64,000 nt of DNA from Chloroflexota bacterium. Its GTDB lineage: Bacteria > Chloroflexota > Dehalococcoidia > Tepidiformales > Tepidiformaceae. Positions within the stretch are counted from its first letter, which is position 1, and every line of letters begins with the position of its first letter. A model generated the notes under the pieces. It did no database searches. It saw only the letters and a program-made list of their open reading frames with translations, and had not been told where the DNA came from. Shown in pieces: positions 57,634-63,928 of the stretch. The stretch covers positions 39,712 to 103,711 of the forward strand of contig JAPPBY010000007.1 of the NCBI GenBank assembly GCA_026702615.1, given 5' to 3'. The position numbers and the translations under genes are program-made.

Positions 57634-57719
57634 GCTGGGGTGGCGGAATTTGGCAGACGCAGCGGACTTAAAATCCGTGGCCGAAAGGCGTGAGGGTTCG
57701 AATCCCTCCCCCGGTACCA
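57634..57719 (+). tRNA. tRNA-Leu (anticodon TAA), CCA encoded
   Basis: Anticodon loop CTTAAAA, long variable arm, T-arm GAGGG-TTCGAAT-CCCTC, 3' CCCCGGTACCA. Confidence 0.95.
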
Positions 57720-59296
57720 ACCGAGACCGTGTTGCGAACGTCCTCTGGCAGGCTGATCTCCGCTGCATCCCCTCCGGCAATGGGGCTGTCCGCCGGGGTC
57801 GGGATGGTGTAGCGGATCGTCGCCGTCCCGGGCTTGACCGCGATCTCCTTCACAAAAGACCGGATGAACGCCCGCGACCCGGTGATGTCGCTCGTTCGCA
57901 GGAAATCGCTCATCTCCCGAACGTAGGAGGCGATCACGTCCACGCTGTCGAGCAGCGCCCGGCGACTGGCGAGCGCATCCCGCGCCTCGCCAGCCGTCCG
58001 CTCAAGCCGCTCCTGGCGCTCCTGGTGCTGACGGATGCGCGGCAGGATGTCGTTGACCTCCATGTCTGAGGTCTCCACCGCGAACCAGAGCCGATCCATG
58101 CGCCGGCGGACCTCGGCCAACTCCTCCTCGATCGCCTCCAGCTTCTGGCGCTCCTGGTGCGCCACGCCGTCCATCTCCTCGTCGACGAGGCGTACCAGGT
58201 CGCGGATGTTGGACTCGGTGAGGATGTGCTCGCGAATCTGCTCGATGATGAGCCGCTCGAAGCGCCCCGAGTTGAGGCGCGGGGTATCACACGCTCCCCG
58301 TCCGCGCTTGAGGAGCGACTGGCAGACGTAGTAGGTGTACCTGCCGCCCTTGGCCTCCTGGGCGCTGAGGGACGTGTGGCAGGACCGGCACTTCGCGAGC
58401 CCGCTGAGGAGGTAGGGACTGGCGGTACGGCGTGGGTGCGCCTGCGACGGCGCCTTCGAGCTCAGAACCTGCGCCACGCGCTCGAACTCCTCCCGCGTGA
58501 CGATGGCGGGGAAGGCGTCCTCGACGCGCACGGGCGGAGCGCCGTCCCTAGCGTTCGTCCCCCACACGACCGTGCCCGTGTAGGCCTCGTTTGAGAGGAG
58601 GCGGTGGATCGACGTCTTGAGCCAGCGCTTGCCGTGGGGGGTGGCGATGCCCTCGTCGTTGAGGGCGCGGGTGATGTCGAGGAGGCTGACCCCGGAGGCC
58701 GCCATCCTGAACATCCGCCTCACGACGGCGTCGGCCGGCGGATCGAGAACCAGCCGGGGGCGCTTCTTGGCGCCGTCCTGGACGTACTCCTTGCGGTAGC
58801 CGTAGGGGGCGTAGGTGGGAACCCAGAAACCGCGCGAGGCGGATTCGCGCATCCCGCGCGTGACCTCTTCCGCCAAGTTGGCGCTGTAGAACTCGTCGAC
58901 GCTCTCGATGATCGCCTCCATGAGCTTGCCGGTGGGAGAGTCGTCGGCGTGCTCGGTGATGGAGGTGACGCGGATGCCGCGGCGGCGCAGCATCGACTTG
59001 AAGGCGACGGCGTGCTCGCGCTTGCGGGTGAAGCGCGAGAACTTCCAGACGAGGATCTCGGCGAAGGGCGCGTCGTCGTCGCGCGCCGCGTCGAGCATCT
59101 TGCGGAACTCGGGGCGGTTGGCGATGCGCCCGCTCTCGGCCTCGTCGACGTACTCTCGGACGACGACGTAGTTGTGCTTCGCGGCGTAGTCGCGCAGCGC
59201 GCGCAGCTGCGCCGAGACGGAGAGGTCGACGTCCTGGCGGTCGCTGGAGACGCGGGCGTAGAGGGCGGCGGGCGTGGGTTCTGGTCGGTCGTTCAT
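57668..59296 (-). CDS. Large serine recombinase/integrase
   Basis: ALYARVSSDRQDVDLSVSAQLRALRDYA; VWKFSRFTR; recombinase domain GTNARDG..PYLLSGLAKCRSCHTSLS zinc ribbon; frame ends in tRNA-Leu antisense. Confidence 0.95.
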   Translation of the reverse strand: MNDRPEPTPAALYARVSSDRQDVDLSVSAQLRALRDYAAKHNYVVVREYVDEAESGRIANRPEFRKMLDAARDDDAPFAEILVWKFSRFTRKREHAVAFKSMLRRRGIRVTSITEHADDSPTGKLMEAIIESVDEFYSANLAEEVTRGMRESASRGFWVPTYAPYGYRKEYVQDGAKKRPRLVLDPPADAVVRRMFRMAASGVSLLDITRALNDEGIATPHGKRWLKTSIHRLLSNEAYTGTVVWGTNARDGAPPVRVEDAFPAIVTREEFERVAQVLSSKAPSQAHPRRTASPYLLSGLAKCRSCHTSLSAQEAKGGRYTYYVCQSLLKRGRGACDTPRLNSGRFERLIIEQIREHILTESNIRDLVRLVDEEMDGVAHQERQKLEAIEEELAEVRRRMDRLWFAVETSDMEVNDILPRIRQHQERQERLERTAGEARDALASRRALLDSVDVIASYVREMSDFLRTSDITGSRAFIRSFVKEIAVKPGTATIRYTIPTPADSPIAGGDAAEISLPEDVRNTVSVGTGGGIRTLTPFGHGF

Positions 59297-59343: not shown

Positions 59344-59570
59344 GTGCGTTTGGTCACTCCTGTCGAAGAACAGTCACATCGCAGTCAAAGTTCAGCCAAC
59401 GATTCCGGGAAAACGCCTGAAATCGGCCCGAAAGCCGTTGCCGGGCGGCTCCCTCGCTGCTAGCCTCGCCGCGTCGAACATTAGTTCCAAAGAAAGTGTA
59501 GCCCCCGGCGCGGCTGCTGACCACCCCCAAGGCGGGGCTGGGCCCAGGGCAGGCGCAGTGAGACCGAACC

Positions 59571-59759
59571 GTGAGTACCGAGCGACGCCAGACCGACCAC
59601 CACGAGGAGTTGCGCATCGAGGGTCTGCGCGCCCTGGCGCGCGTCATTGTGCGCCACGCCCTGGCCAACCCCGATCGGGAACCCGATCCGCCGGAGGAGA
59701 GCGCGGGAGCGCCAGTCAGAAAAGCCGCCGAGCCCGGTGGCGAGGGAGGCGCGCCGTGA
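59571..59759 (+). CDS. Small hypothetical protein (first of coupled gene string)
   Basis: GTG start, GTGA overlap with next gene. Confidence 0.5.
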   Translation: MSTERRQTDHHEELRIEGLRALARVIVRHALANPDREPDPPEESAGAPVRKAAEPGGEGGAP

Positions 59760-59995
59760 GCGGCAGCCGTCGCCACAGGAACCCACTGCTGCGGGCGGAA
59801 GTCGTGTGGGCGTACCTCACCCGCCACAACCTCACCCAGAAGGCCTTCGCGCGCCTCGTCGGGATCGACCCCGGCTACCTCTCGCAGATGCTGAGCGGCA
59901 AGCGCCGCCCCTCCCCCTCGATGCGGGTGCGGCTCATGAAGGCGCTCGGCATCGAGCACGTCGAGGATCTCTTCGTGATGGAGGTCGCCGCGTGA
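59756..59995 (+). CDS. Cro/C1 (XRE)-type HTH protein
   Basis: NLTQKAFARLVGIDPGYLSQMLSGKRRPSPSMRVRLMKALGI. Confidence 0.8.
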   Translation: MSGSRRHRNPLLRAEVVWAYLTRHNLTQKAFARLVGIDPGYLSQMLSGKRRPSPSMRVRLMKALGIEHVEDLFVMEVAA

Positions 59996-60336
59996 TCCGC
60001 CGGCTGCCGCCCCCGGAGCTGCTGATCGAAGCGCCCTTCCTGCCGGACGACTTTCCCCGACGGCTGCTGCGCTTCAAGGAGACCCTCGACGTCTCCTGGG
60101 ACGTGCTGGCGACCTGCATCGGCGCCGACCCGCGACAGGTGTGGCGCTGGCGCGAGGGGACGAAGCCGAGCGGCGACTCGCTGTACGCGCTCTTCCTGCT
60201 GGCCGACCGCCAACCCGGAGGCGTGCGGCTGCTGCTGGGCGAGGACGGCGATCGCGGAAGACATCCTGTGATCTGGTTGCCGGCCGATCGGGCGGCGCCG
60301 GGTGAGCAAGCAGGCGAAGACACGCGATGGAGGTGA
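59992..60336 (+). CDS. Small HTH-like protein
   Basis: LPDDFPRRLLRFKETLDVSWDVLATCIGADPRQVWRWREGTKPSGDSLYALFLLAD. Confidence 0.7.
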   Translation: MIRRLPPPELLIEAPFLPDDFPRRLLRFKETLDVSWDVLATCIGADPRQVWRWREGTKPSGDSLYALFLLADRQPGGVRLLLGEDGDRGRHPVIWLPADRAAPGEQAGEDTRWR

Positions 60337-60680
60337 ACGAGATGGAAGAATTGCAGGTTCCCACGGTCATGGTCGAGGGCCGCAAGCGCGCGATCCTCAC
60401 GCAGGACAAGTTCCGCGCCCTGTACGTCGACGGCTTGCCGGAGGGGCTCGAACGCCTCGCGGTTGTGGCCGGCATGACATGGCCACAGCTCGCCGCCCGG
60501 CTGGGCGTCGGCGAGGGGCGCGTGCAGGAGTGGCGCGATGGCTGGCCGCCCGACAGCGACGAGGTCGGCGCGCTCATCGAGGTTGCGTCGCGCGTGTCGG
60601 GCGGGCTCGCGGCGCTCTACCCGCAACTCCACGCTGCCCTCGCGGCGGCGGACGGAGGCGAGCGGGCGCGGTGGGCGTGA
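60327..60680 (+). CDS. Small HTH-like protein
   Basis: GLERLAVVAGMTWPQLAARLGVGEGRVQEWRDGWPPDSDEVGALIEVAS. Confidence 0.65.
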   Translation: MEVNEMEELQVPTVMVEGRKRAILTQDKFRALYVDGLPEGLERLAVVAGMTWPQLAARLGVGEGRVQEWRDGWPPDSDEVGALIEVASRVSGGLAALYPQLHAALAAADGGERARWA

Positions 60681-60961
60681 AGCGGCAGGTGCAGCGCCCC
60701 CTCGGGTCGTGGTTCCCGGCCGACTTCGGCCAGCGGCTGGCGCGCTTCCGCGAGGCAGCGGGGCTGAGCTGGCGTTCGCTCGCGCGGCTGCTCGGGGTCA
60801 CGCCCTACCGGCTACGGCAATGGCGGCGCGGCGCCGTGCCGAACGGCGAGCACCTCTTCGTTCTGCTGACGCTCGCGGAGGCGATGGGGCTGCGCGACGG
60901 GATCCTCATGCAGCCCGAGCGCGACCTGCCCCGCAATGGCGCAGCCTATCGCCGCAGCTGA
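60677..60961 (+). CDS. Small HTH-like protein, paralogous to 59992-60336
   Basis: FPADFGQRLARFREAAGLSWRSLARLLGVTPYRLRQWRRGAVPNGEHLFVLLTLAEA. Confidence 0.7.
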   Translation: MKRQVQRPLGSWFPADFGQRLARFREAAGLSWRSLARLLGVTPYRLRQWRRGAVPNGEHLFVLLTLAEAMGLRDGILMQPERDLPRNGAAYRRS

Positions 60962-61017: not shown

Positions 61018-61650
61018 ATGAACACCAATGAGTCCGGTCCCCAAGGCGGCATCGCCTCCCGCATCCGCGAGGCACGCCAGGCCGCAGGCCTCACTCAGCA
61101 AGAACTGGCCGCACGTGTCGGCGTCACGCGCCGCACCGTCTGGAGCTGGGAGGCGGGCCGGACGAGGCCCGGCCAGGAGCATCTCACCGGAATCACCCTG
61201 CATTGCGGGAGGGCCGTGACGGAACTGGACGGGCGCGAGACTCGCGAACAGGCGCGGCGCTCGCCGGCGAGGGTCACGATGCCGCAGGAAGCGCGGATGC
61301 GCGCGGTGCTCGGCGTGGTCGCCCGCTACGTCGCCGAGCAAGGCTTCGCGCCGAGCATGCAGGAGATCATGGAGGAGACCGGGTTCAGTTCGAAGTCGGT
61401 CGTCGGGTACACGCTCGACGCATGCGAGGAAACGGGGCTGATCGTTCGCGGGCGGCGCATGGCGCGGGCCCTCGGGATCACGGCAACGGGACGCGCGTTC
61501 GCCGAGTCGCACTTGGAGGCCGGCGGCCTGCCGGTGCGCCGCGAGCGCCTCGCCCCGAGCGTGACCGGCGCCGGGACAGGACCGGACGCCGTGATTCACG
61601 CTCGCCGCGCACCGAGCCTCAACGCCCGGAAGCCTCCGGGGCGCCGTTGA
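61018..61650 (+). CDS. XRE HTH fused to LexA-like winged-helix DNA-binding domain
   Basis: IREARQAAGLTQQELAARVGVTRRTVWSWEAG; VLGVVARYVAEQGFAPSMQEIMEETGFSSKSVVGYTLDACEETGLI; RBS aaggagc. Confidence 0.8.
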   Translation: MNTNESGPQGGIASRIREARQAAGLTQQELAARVGVTRRTVWSWEAGRTRPGQEHLTGITLHCGRAVTELDGRETREQARRSPARVTMPQEARMRAVLGVVARYVAEQGFAPSMQEIMEETGFSSKSVVGYTLDACEETGLIVRGRRMARALGITATGRAFAESHLEAGGLPVRRERLAPSVTGAGTGPDAVIHARRAPSLNARKPPGRR

Positions 61651-61683
61651 AGCAAACGCGACGACGGCGGGGCACCAAGTCCG

Positions 61684-61776
61684 GAGGCGGCATCGCCGCG
61701 CGCCGTTGCCGACGAGCGCCGCGACATGGGCCTGACCCAGCGCGAGAGCGCCGCGCTCGCGAGCCGACGTCACCGA
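61684..61776 (+). pseudogene. Truncated/frameshifted XRE HTH relic
   Basis: GGIAAR then, after a frame change, VADERRDMGLTQRESAALAS, parallel to GGIASRIREARQAAGLTQQELAA of the upstream gene. Confidence 0.5.
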
Positions 61777-61813
61777 TGCGGGTGAGGCTGACGTAGGCAG
61801 CAGGGACCGCGGG

Positions 61814-61837
61814 CTCGTGCTCGTGCTCGTGCTCGTG
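61814..61837 (+). repeat. (CTCGTG)4 hexanucleotide tandem repeat
   Basis: Direct reading. Confidence 0.9.
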
Positions 61838-61960
61838 CCCAGTGCTCCTCGATACCCCCTACCTGGGCCTCATCGTCAGCCATCGCTCGCACAAGGTCAC
61901 GGTCGCGCGACACGAACGACGCCGACCCGCGGAAAAGCAGGCCAGGCGGCCGGTGTCCAG

Positions 61961-61989
61961 TTGACACTCCGTATCAGTAGCCCTAGCGT
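61961..61989 (+). promoter_or_regulatory. Candidate promoter TTGACA-N17-TAGCGT
   Basis: Upstream of the surface protein gene with a leader of roughly 220 nt. Confidence 0.4.
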
Positions 61990-62212
61990 TTGGAGCCGCC
62001 TGCGGAACGCAAGGCGAGAGGACAAGACTGACCGGGACGCACATCGTCGCCAACGTTCTCCTCCGCTGGTGGAAGCGAGCCGACGGCGACCGGCGGTCGG
62101 GGCTGAGGGACATACCCGTGTAGAGACGCCCGCACGCGGCGCATGGCGCGCCCTCGAGGCGAGGCGTCGGAGAACAGATACGAGCTTCAGGAACGAAACG
62201 AAAGCGAGACTC

Positions 62213-63928
62213 ATGAACGCAATTGTCAGCGCACCCAACCGATTCAGGCGCTACGTGGCGGGGCTGGGACTGGCCGCGCTCGCCGTCACCCTGCTGGCGG
62301 TGGCCTTCGCCACCGGCCCAGCACAGGCGCAGGACGATCCACCCGTCCCCACGCCTACTCCGACGCCGACCGCTACACCTGTTGTGAACACCTACCCCGA
62401 TCCGCAACCCTGCGGACCCGGTGCCGGCACGGCCTCCCAGCCCGAGCCGCACGAGATCACCACGGGCCACTTCGCCCTCTTCGACGCCTACTGGCGCGCA
62501 ACGGCCCGAAACCAGCAGGGGGTTGCCGATGCTGGCGTCCTCCACACGAATCTCTGTCCGCCCAAGGTGGTCACAACCAGGGAAAACAATTTCGGGACGA
62601 TTACTGAGACAACCACCCGCTCCGCTTCCAACATCGACATCGGCGAAGCGATCTTCCACGTGCTGGACACGCACAAGGTGGACGTGGTGGCCACCAACGC
62701 CGAGGCGACCGCCGGCCAGCTGTCGCTGGAAGAGTATCCCAAGCTCCGCAAGGGCCTGGGCCTCGGCGAGGATGACGCGGTGCCCGCCGGTACCAAGGTC
62801 TGGTGGCTGCGGCTGGACGACCCGGACACAGCGGCGGACGACACCTCGAACCTGAGGCTGGGCTTCTCCACCGCCCTGTTCGACGATGAACACTGGCTCA
62901 CGAGCGCCGAAGGCAAGCCCATGCGCTACAAGTTCGAGGTGCAGCGCTACCCGGCCGACCCCGCCGACGTGCCGCATTTCTTCGCCTACGAGGCTCCCGA
63001 GTCCAGCAACGCCGAGGCAACGATCGTCTGGAACAGCTTCGAGGCCGACCTTGACGACGACGACATGGTGCTGGACCCCGGCGAGTACAGCTCCCTGCAG
63101 TGGATCTTCACCCACGCCGGCACCTACGAGCTGTCCGTCCACCTACAGGGCTTCGTCCGTATGACGAGGCTCATCACAGACGTCGACGATCCCAACTACG
63201 ACATCAACTGGCGGCGCATCAGCGGTAACGCGACCGAGACCGGCGAGGTGAAGACGTACACCATCCAGGTGGGCAGCGATCTCGACGAGAATGAGCCGCC
63301 CGTCTTCGGCCTCAACCTCAGCGTGCCCGAGAACTCCCCCGCCGGCGTCAGCGTCGGCGACCCGATTCCGGTATTCGAAGCCGACGCGGAGACGCTCTAC
63401 TACAGCCTCTCCGGCGAGGGCCACGAGCACTTTGCCGTGGAGCCTGCAACCGGGCCCCACGCAGTCCAGATCAAAGTCGCCGCCGGGGCGAGCCTCGACT
63501 ACGAAACGAAGCCCACCTACGAGCTCACGCTGAGCGTGAGCGACAGACTGGACCACGAGAGCAACGAAGATACGACCATCGATGACACCCTGGTCGTCAG
63601 GATCGGCCTGGTGGATCAGGCGCCTGGGCTGGTGCTCCAGGCCGACCGCGAAGTCCTGTTGGTTGGCGAAGCGGTGACCCTCACCGCCAGGTATGAGCCA
63701 ACGCCGGAACAACGCGGTCAGACGTTCGCCTACCAGTGGGCGTATCAGACCGGGACAGACGACGGCGTCAGGTGGCACGTAGTCACATCGGCTCCCAACG
63801 CTGCTACCTGGTCCGTTCCGCAAACGACTGCGATGAGCAGGACGTACCGAGTGGCGGTGGCGTTGGGTGAGTACCTCCCGCCTCTGTTCGTGGAATCCAA
63901 CGAGATCGAAATCCGCTGGGGAAACTAG
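62213..63928 (+). CDS. Secreted surface protein: choice-of-anchor M-like domain plus cadherin/Ig-like C-terminal region
   Basis: Signal peptide ...ALAVTLLAVAFATGPAQAQ; TTGHFALFDAYW; SSLQWIFTHAGTYELSVHLQG; FGLNLSVPENSPAGVSVGDPIPVFEAD cadherin-like. Confidence 0.75.
   Translation: MNAIVSAPNRFRRYVAGLGLAALAVTLLAVAFATGPAQAQDDPPVPTPTPTPTATPVVNTYPDPQPCGPGAGTASQPEPHEITTGHFALFDAYWRATARNQQGVADAGVLHTNLCPPKVVTTRENNFGTITETTTRSASNIDIGEAIFHVLDTHKVDVVATNAEATAGQLSLEEYPKLRKGLGLGEDDAVPAGTKVWWLRLDDPDTAADDTSNLRLGFSTALFDDEHWLTSAEGKPMRYKFEVQRYPADPADVPHFFAYEAPESSNAEATIVWNSFEADLDDDDMVLDPGEYSSLQWIFTHAGTYELSVHLQGFVRMTRLITDVDDPNYDINWRRISGNATETGEVKTYTIQVGSDLDENEPPVFGLNLSVPENSPAGVSVGDPIPVFEADAETLYYSLSGEGHEHFAVEPATGPHAVQIKVAAGASLDYETKPTYELTLSVSDRLDHESNEDTTIDDTLVVRIGLVDQAPGLVLQADREVLLVGEAVTLTARYEPTPEQRGQTFAYQWAYQTGTDDGVRWHVVTSAPNAATWSVPQTTAMSRTYRVAVALGEYLPPLFVESNEIEIRWGN

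Follow-up and report, generated by a model that had tools for sequence, protein, structure and literature searches.

The window, that is the whole stretch of 64,000 nucleotides that was analysed (G000:C5:39712-103711), ends where its contig ends, so the rest of the element lies out of view. The region of interest within it contains a tRNA gene, a large serine recombinase gene and a string of five short overlapping open reading frames (o1 to o5), followed by a gene that we call lexX:

57634-57719, forward strand: tRNA-Leu(taa) gene (ARAGORN); its 3' half shares sequence with the 3' end of the integrase gene and is the likely attachment site
57668-59296, reverse strand: large serine recombinase (integrase), 542 aa (PF00239, 2.6e-31; PF07508, 5.9e-22; PF13408, 4.4e-10)
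59438-59466, forward strand: putative promoter, TTGCCG (59438-59443), 17 bp, TAGCCT (59461-59466)
59476-59487, forward strand: LexA box GAACATTAGTTC; GAACN4GTTC occurs nowhere else in the window, and the predicted position of the box is at the transcription start
59571-59759, forward strand: o1, 62 aa, charged, with the motif GLRALARVIVRHxLA
59756-59995, forward strand: o2, 79 aa, Cro/C1-type HTH (HTH_3)
59992-60336, forward strand: o3, 114 aa, an XRE-type HTH with the WR.G motif and, by position, the orthologue of the first paralogue in all arrays
60327-60680, forward strand: o4, 117 aa, an optional third WR.G HTH of the "extras" clade, here between o3 and o5
60677-60961, forward strand: o5, 94 aa, an XRE-type HTH with the WR.G motif and, by position, the orthologue of the second paralogue
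61018-61650, forward strand: lexX, 210 aa, fusion of an XRE and a LexA-type winged-HTH domain without S24 peptidase
61650-61790, forward strand: probable decayed second XRE domain, frame-broken (tblastn E about 0.01, weak)

The first-pass annotation had described a string of five overlapping short frames, and this was confirmed: each overlaps the next, by 4, 4, 10 and 4 bp in turn, with GTGA overlaps at 59756, 59992 and 60677 and the 10-bp overlap at 60327. Its description of the products as tiny HTH proteins holds for four of them. In Pfam, o2 is a clear Cro/C1-type HTH protein (PF01381, E=2.3e-11, above the cut-off), o5 matches PF13560 (HTH_31, 3.5e-07) and PF01381 (HTH_3, 6.4e-06), both above the cut-off, and o3 and o4 give weak HTH matches. 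The exception is o1, for which neither Pfam nor further profile searches returned a family match. The motif that had been reported for three of the frames was borne out by alignment: W..LA...G......WR.G..P is common to o3, o4 and o5, and their alignment over the HTH, which took in seven sequences, keeps nine columns invariant. Modelled with AlphaFold, an o3 relative and o5 each form an XRE-like bundle of helices (pLDDT 74-76); in a structure search the o3 model resembled P22 C2, DdrO and SinR, all matches having E values of at least 0.05, and a weak profile similarity to lambda CII was found (1zs4, E=0.005). Assignment to the XRE (Cro/C1-type) family was made by profile for o2 and o5, by model for the o3 relative and o5, and by clade for o4. 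The notion of coupled DNA-binding paralogues applies to o3, o4 and o5, which have XRE-type folds, while o2 lies outside the WR.G paralogue set.

We examined 62 loci, of which 61 are distinct (L088 and L161 are one contig), and the module o1-o2-o3-(extras)-o5 was present in about 61 distinct arrays. The window genome has two further arrays, C23, located by a serine recombinase overlapping a tRNA-Gln gene, and C34. By profile search, 6 of the 9 genomes of the genus and 34 of the 393 genomes of the class carry arrays, and further arrays came from one family outside the class. A scan of contigs from named genomes gave 21 loci, 20 of them in Chloroflexota/Dehalococcoidia MAGs and one on a 3.4-kb contig labelled Acidobacteria, which is possibly misbinned. 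The isolate names of the array-carrying MAGs hint at sponge metagenomes as their possible source. Phages, plasmids and viral contigs yielded no homologue of o3. Side observations were made at three loci: four tandem short-chain dehydrogenase-like paralogues (MAGELEGKVSIITGGGSGMGR...) lie by the C23 element of the same genome (L009 1956-5267), a NYN + OST-HTH/LOTUS protein adjoins the C34 array (L010 7400-8257; PF01936, 1.5e-32; PF12872, 2.6e-13), and another NYN-domain gene is found near array L105.

The number of WR.G genes per array was two at 51 of the 62 loci, three at 6, four at 3, five at 1 and one at a single locus, and o2 was found in most arrays. In the tree of all WR.G domains, three clades were formed, corresponding to o3 (support 0.99), o5 (0.95) and the extras (0.70); the window gene at 60327 (o4) grouped with the extras, a clade that most loci lack. 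Because o3 and o5 form two separate clades, they are an old pair inherited together, and on this phylogeny the WR.G set is an inherited pair with optional additions. Recurrent tandem amplification of o3 and o5 was ruled out, each of the two clades being represented once per array. Among the o1/o2 junctions, 34 of the 35 scored have an in-frame start placed 4 or 11 bp ahead of where the upstream stop codon ends, the scoring favouring -4 starts so that the exact overlap figures lean that way; the o2/o3 junctions overlap in most arrays. The estimates of pN/pS were about 0.2-0.5 for most pairs of o2, o3, o5 and extras, so that most of the genes tested are under purifying selection. Selection was weaker on o1 (0.63-0.85; about 0.85 in the pair formed by the window and L068) and on lexX at 61018 (0.89 in the same pair). 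A non-coding or chance origin was ruled out by the conservation in about 61 loci, the kept overlaps and the pN/pS values; the two points on which the reality of the string had been made to depend, conservation in relatives and coding status, both came out in its favour, the order o1-o2-o3-o5 and the overlaps recurring in dozens of loci.

The exact palindrome GAACN4GTTC, which is the LexA operator of B. subtilis (PMC4234289), was found in 21 of the 62 arrays, at most 250 bp upstream of the first array domain, compared with 1.25% of random segments from the same loci. It was by far the commonest palindrome upstream of the arrays among the 3328 that combine 256 half-sites with 13 spacers. The hypothesis was formed on the first set of loci, and 13 of the 21 box-carrying loci were fetched afterwards; L163/L166 and L187/L191 are near-identical, and relatedness among the loci makes the p-values optimistic. 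The remaining 41 arrays had no exact box within 250 bp, and LexA control is therefore not universal. The geometry takes two forms. In arrays headed by o1, including that of the window, the box lies just after a -10-like TAnnnT, and in arrays with a divergent xre gene it directly precedes a TTGA(C) -35 element that is separated by 17 bp from a TACAAT-like -10. The reading TTGCCG-17-TAGCCT in the window is based on the aligned promoter contexts of relatives; a strict sigma-70 scan of the window region called no promoter.

In the window genome, CGAACATCCGTTCG stands just before the start of lexA, and the recA gene has a box with one mismatch. By sequence, the operator at the array promoter (GAACATTAGTTC) matches that of the host lexA gene, as expected for a member of the LexA regulon. 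An exact box also precedes lexA in 10 other genomes with arrays; in the family outside the class, the four lexA genes have no such box, and neither do the arrays. The array box was commoner where host lexA was boxed (14/21 vs 2/9; Fisher p=0.046, an optimistic value given the related loci). The sharing of the box with host lexA suggests that the elements respond to host DNA damage. At loci without arrays, LexA boxes were also seen directly upstream of serine integrase genes (L242 8520, L247 7044, L248 9089), and in L242 and L247 the box lies between o1 and the integrase.

An XRE + LexA-like regulator had been reported downstream of the string, and it was recovered as lexX, which matches HTH_3 and LexA_DNA_bind. 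Its relative in L068 is an uninterrupted XRE-LexA-XRE protein of 329 aa, and several arrays end in a stand-alone peptidase-less LexA DNA-binding domain (lexS). Both lexX and lexS match the N-terminal domain of LexA only (PF01726; TIGR00498 positions 6-72 of 203); they are not LexA repressors in the full sense of a winged HTH with a C-terminal S24 peptidase, since the peptidase is absent. The recognition helix of lexX and of most lexS proteins has a pattern near SSxSVVxYxL, as in host LexA, and these proteins can probably bind the same box. A 703-aa open reading frame with a Cadherin domain match was observed at 61817-63928, about 0.17 kb after lexX, and large frames with secreted-type repeat domains were also observed near the arrays in L010 and L069.

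The recombinase has the domains Resolvase + Recombinase + Zn_ribbon_recom. The 3' end of its gene lies inside the tRNA gene in the window, so that tRNA sequence codes for the final residues of the protein. The same kind of overlap, with many different tRNAs, was present in L009, L068, L074, L098, L169, L171, L190, L195 and L196; it was counted at 10 loci in one survey, and more loci came from other searches. An integrase with an attachment site, as carried by an integrative and conjugative element (ICE), is represented here by the serine recombinase gene overlapping tRNA-Leu, the site being predicted. As attR of the window element, the sole other near-match to the tRNA-Leu end was rejected because it is a complete tRNA-Met gene elsewhere; the contig ends before any further sequence. 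Serine integrases may leave a very short repeat at the element ends. In the survey, a serine integrase was found within 4 kb of the array in 30 of the 62 loci, mostly divergent where adjacent, and several other loci had a serine recombinase about 0.5-1 kb downstream of the array in the same direction. At least one conjugation-gene homologue was present in the available stretch of 41 of the 62 loci, and proteins near the arrays matched Replic_Relax, TrwB/TraG coupling proteins and VirB4/TraC-like ATPases. Matches to a relaxase, a coupling protein and a T4SS ATPase lie near the C23 and C34 arrays of the window genome; the window contig ends at 64000, before any such region. The neighbourhood check placed arrays of relatives beside tRNA-overlapping large serine integrases, conjugation genes or both. 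The best reading of these contexts is that the arrays are the control region of ICEs, the window ICE lying in a tRNA-Leu gene. Divergent pairs of an XRE gene and an M78 (ImmA/IrrE-like) gene adjoin arrays in L010, L070, L098 and L107 (below the cut-off in L010); no M78 gene was seen near the window array.

Homologues of o1 were found at most integrase-linked loci. They also lie beside the integrase where o3 and o5 are elsewhere or undetected (L070, L072, L241, L242, L247); the integrase loci L243, L244, L248 and L253 are without o1. Because its homologues stay by the integrase without the array, o1 is the best candidate, by linkage, for an excisionase-type or directionality partner of the integrase.

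Taken together, the string is probably an SOS-inducible control operon for the activation and excision of the ICE. We favour this because the box is enriched and shared with host lexA, the gene order and the overlaps are conserved, the WR.G proteins fall into the o3, o5 and extras clades, the neighbours are integrase and conjugation genes and the promoter geometry is fixed, and also because of the XRE + M78 pairs in relatives, the likeness of the lexX/lexS helix to that of LexA and the tracking of the integrase by o1. We infer from these features that host LexA binds GAACATTAGTTC at the transcription start in vivo and would hold the operon off; DNA damage would trigger LexA cleavage through RecA and release it, making the operon SOS-induced. 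One overlapping transcript would then yield o1, o2, o3, where present o4, and o5. In this scheme the roles of the individual proteins are putative: o1 is a candidate for the partner that would switch the serine integrase to the excision direction, and o2, o3, o4 where present, and o5 may be element-specific transcription or recombination factors, most likely acting as a set that would switch the element from the quiet state to excision and transfer. The peptidase-less LexA domain, which could not be cleaved, probably binds the same box, and lexX or lexS would reset the operon to the closed state by feedback. A more specific version, which we advance only tentatively, holds that sensing by host LexA, together with the element's own uncleavable LexA rival at the box, gives a one-shot pulse of o3 and o5 that drives excision and transfer with o1. 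The earlier suggestion of a combinatorial regulatory switch is upheld as to the switch, by the operon, its neighbours, the box and the ImmR/ImmA-like pairs, and not as to its combinatorial nature.

The same XRE folds, the structural likeness to P22 C2 and DdrO and the weak similarity to CII (1zs4, E=0.005) would also suit a phage-like lysogeny or immunity switch, in which o2, o3 and o5 act as Cro/CI/CII-type proteins and the palindrome is the operator of an element XRE protein rather than of host LexA. The divergent XRE + M78 pairs, and boxes between a divergent xre gene and o2 in several loci, fit such a switch. However, the same box occurs at host lexA promoters and at arrays where the integrase, and not xre, is divergent; o3 homologues are absent from phages, plasmids and viral contigs, and the neighbours are conjugation genes. 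We regard this explanation as unlikely.

Somewhat less likely still is that the HTH proteins, wholly or for the most part, serve the serine integrase as directionality or architectural factors. This excisionase set, one of the functions first proposed for the string, is suggested by the adjacent and mostly divergent integrase of many loci and by the downstream, codirectional recombinase of several, but for 32 of the 62 arrays no serine integrase lies within 4 kb (some of the stretches being short) and integrases occur with o1 and without o3 and o5. The proposal was not borne out, the best candidate by linkage being the non-HTH protein o1. Weak HTH matches of HigA, HipB and RmrA type could point to antitoxin relatives or to regulators of anti-phage defence. 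All of these scores are below curated cut-offs, no toxin partner is present among the conserved genes and the genes kept alongside are those for the integrase and for conjugation, which makes a role of this kind very improbable; an immunity module in the anti-phage sense, also suggested at first, found no support, the PADLOC matches being generic HTH ones.

The SOS-responsive operon that we favour offers a testable, sequence-level handle on the movement decisions of conjugative elements in a largely uncultured phylum, namely a LexA box common to element and host and a conserved o1-o5 set without a described family. The integrase-linked o1 may be a new kind of directionality factor for serine integrases, and lexX and lexS suggest that mobile elements may borrow just the DNA-binding domain of LexA in order to imitate the SOS signal and reset it. 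If the pulse switch is true, it would be an undescribed type of ICE control, widespread in this group of Chloroflexota.

Among known systems, lambda CI/Cro/CII and P22 C2 are similar to o2-o5 in fold and size, whereas o2-o5 are a distinct sequence family, with three co-inherited clades per operon and conjugation genes as neighbours. The tum operon of coliphage 186 is an element operon that uses host LexA. The gp7/LexA system of phage GIL01 is likewise a mobile-element operon using host LexA (PMC11841131, citing the review of Fornelos et al. 2016). In both, as is proposed for the arrays, an operon of the element senses SOS through a LexA box; unlike them, the array element adds a peptidase-less LexA-type DNA-binding domain and not a LexA-stabilising protein. 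We know of no counterpart to the o1-o5 content in these host-LexA-using elements. In the literature searched, whose coverage was incomplete, we found nothing on point about Chloroflexota ICEs or stand-alone LexA DNA-binding domains, and no description of a serine integrase combined with an XRE pair inherited together and a LexA domain that lacks the peptidase. In ICEBs1 of Bacillus subtilis, damage leads ImmA to cleave ImmR, and Pxis is opened (PMC11841131). The arrays share with ICEBs1 an ICE excision operon, here a putative one, that is switched by damage, an adjacent integrase and, in several relatives, the XRE + M78 pair, but differ from it in the LexA box at the promoter, the large serine recombinase and the several XRE paralogues; for the window copy, no M78 gene is seen. 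The array system joins the ICEBs1-type and host-LexA themes with a serine integrase, an XRE pair and a peptidase-less LexA domain.
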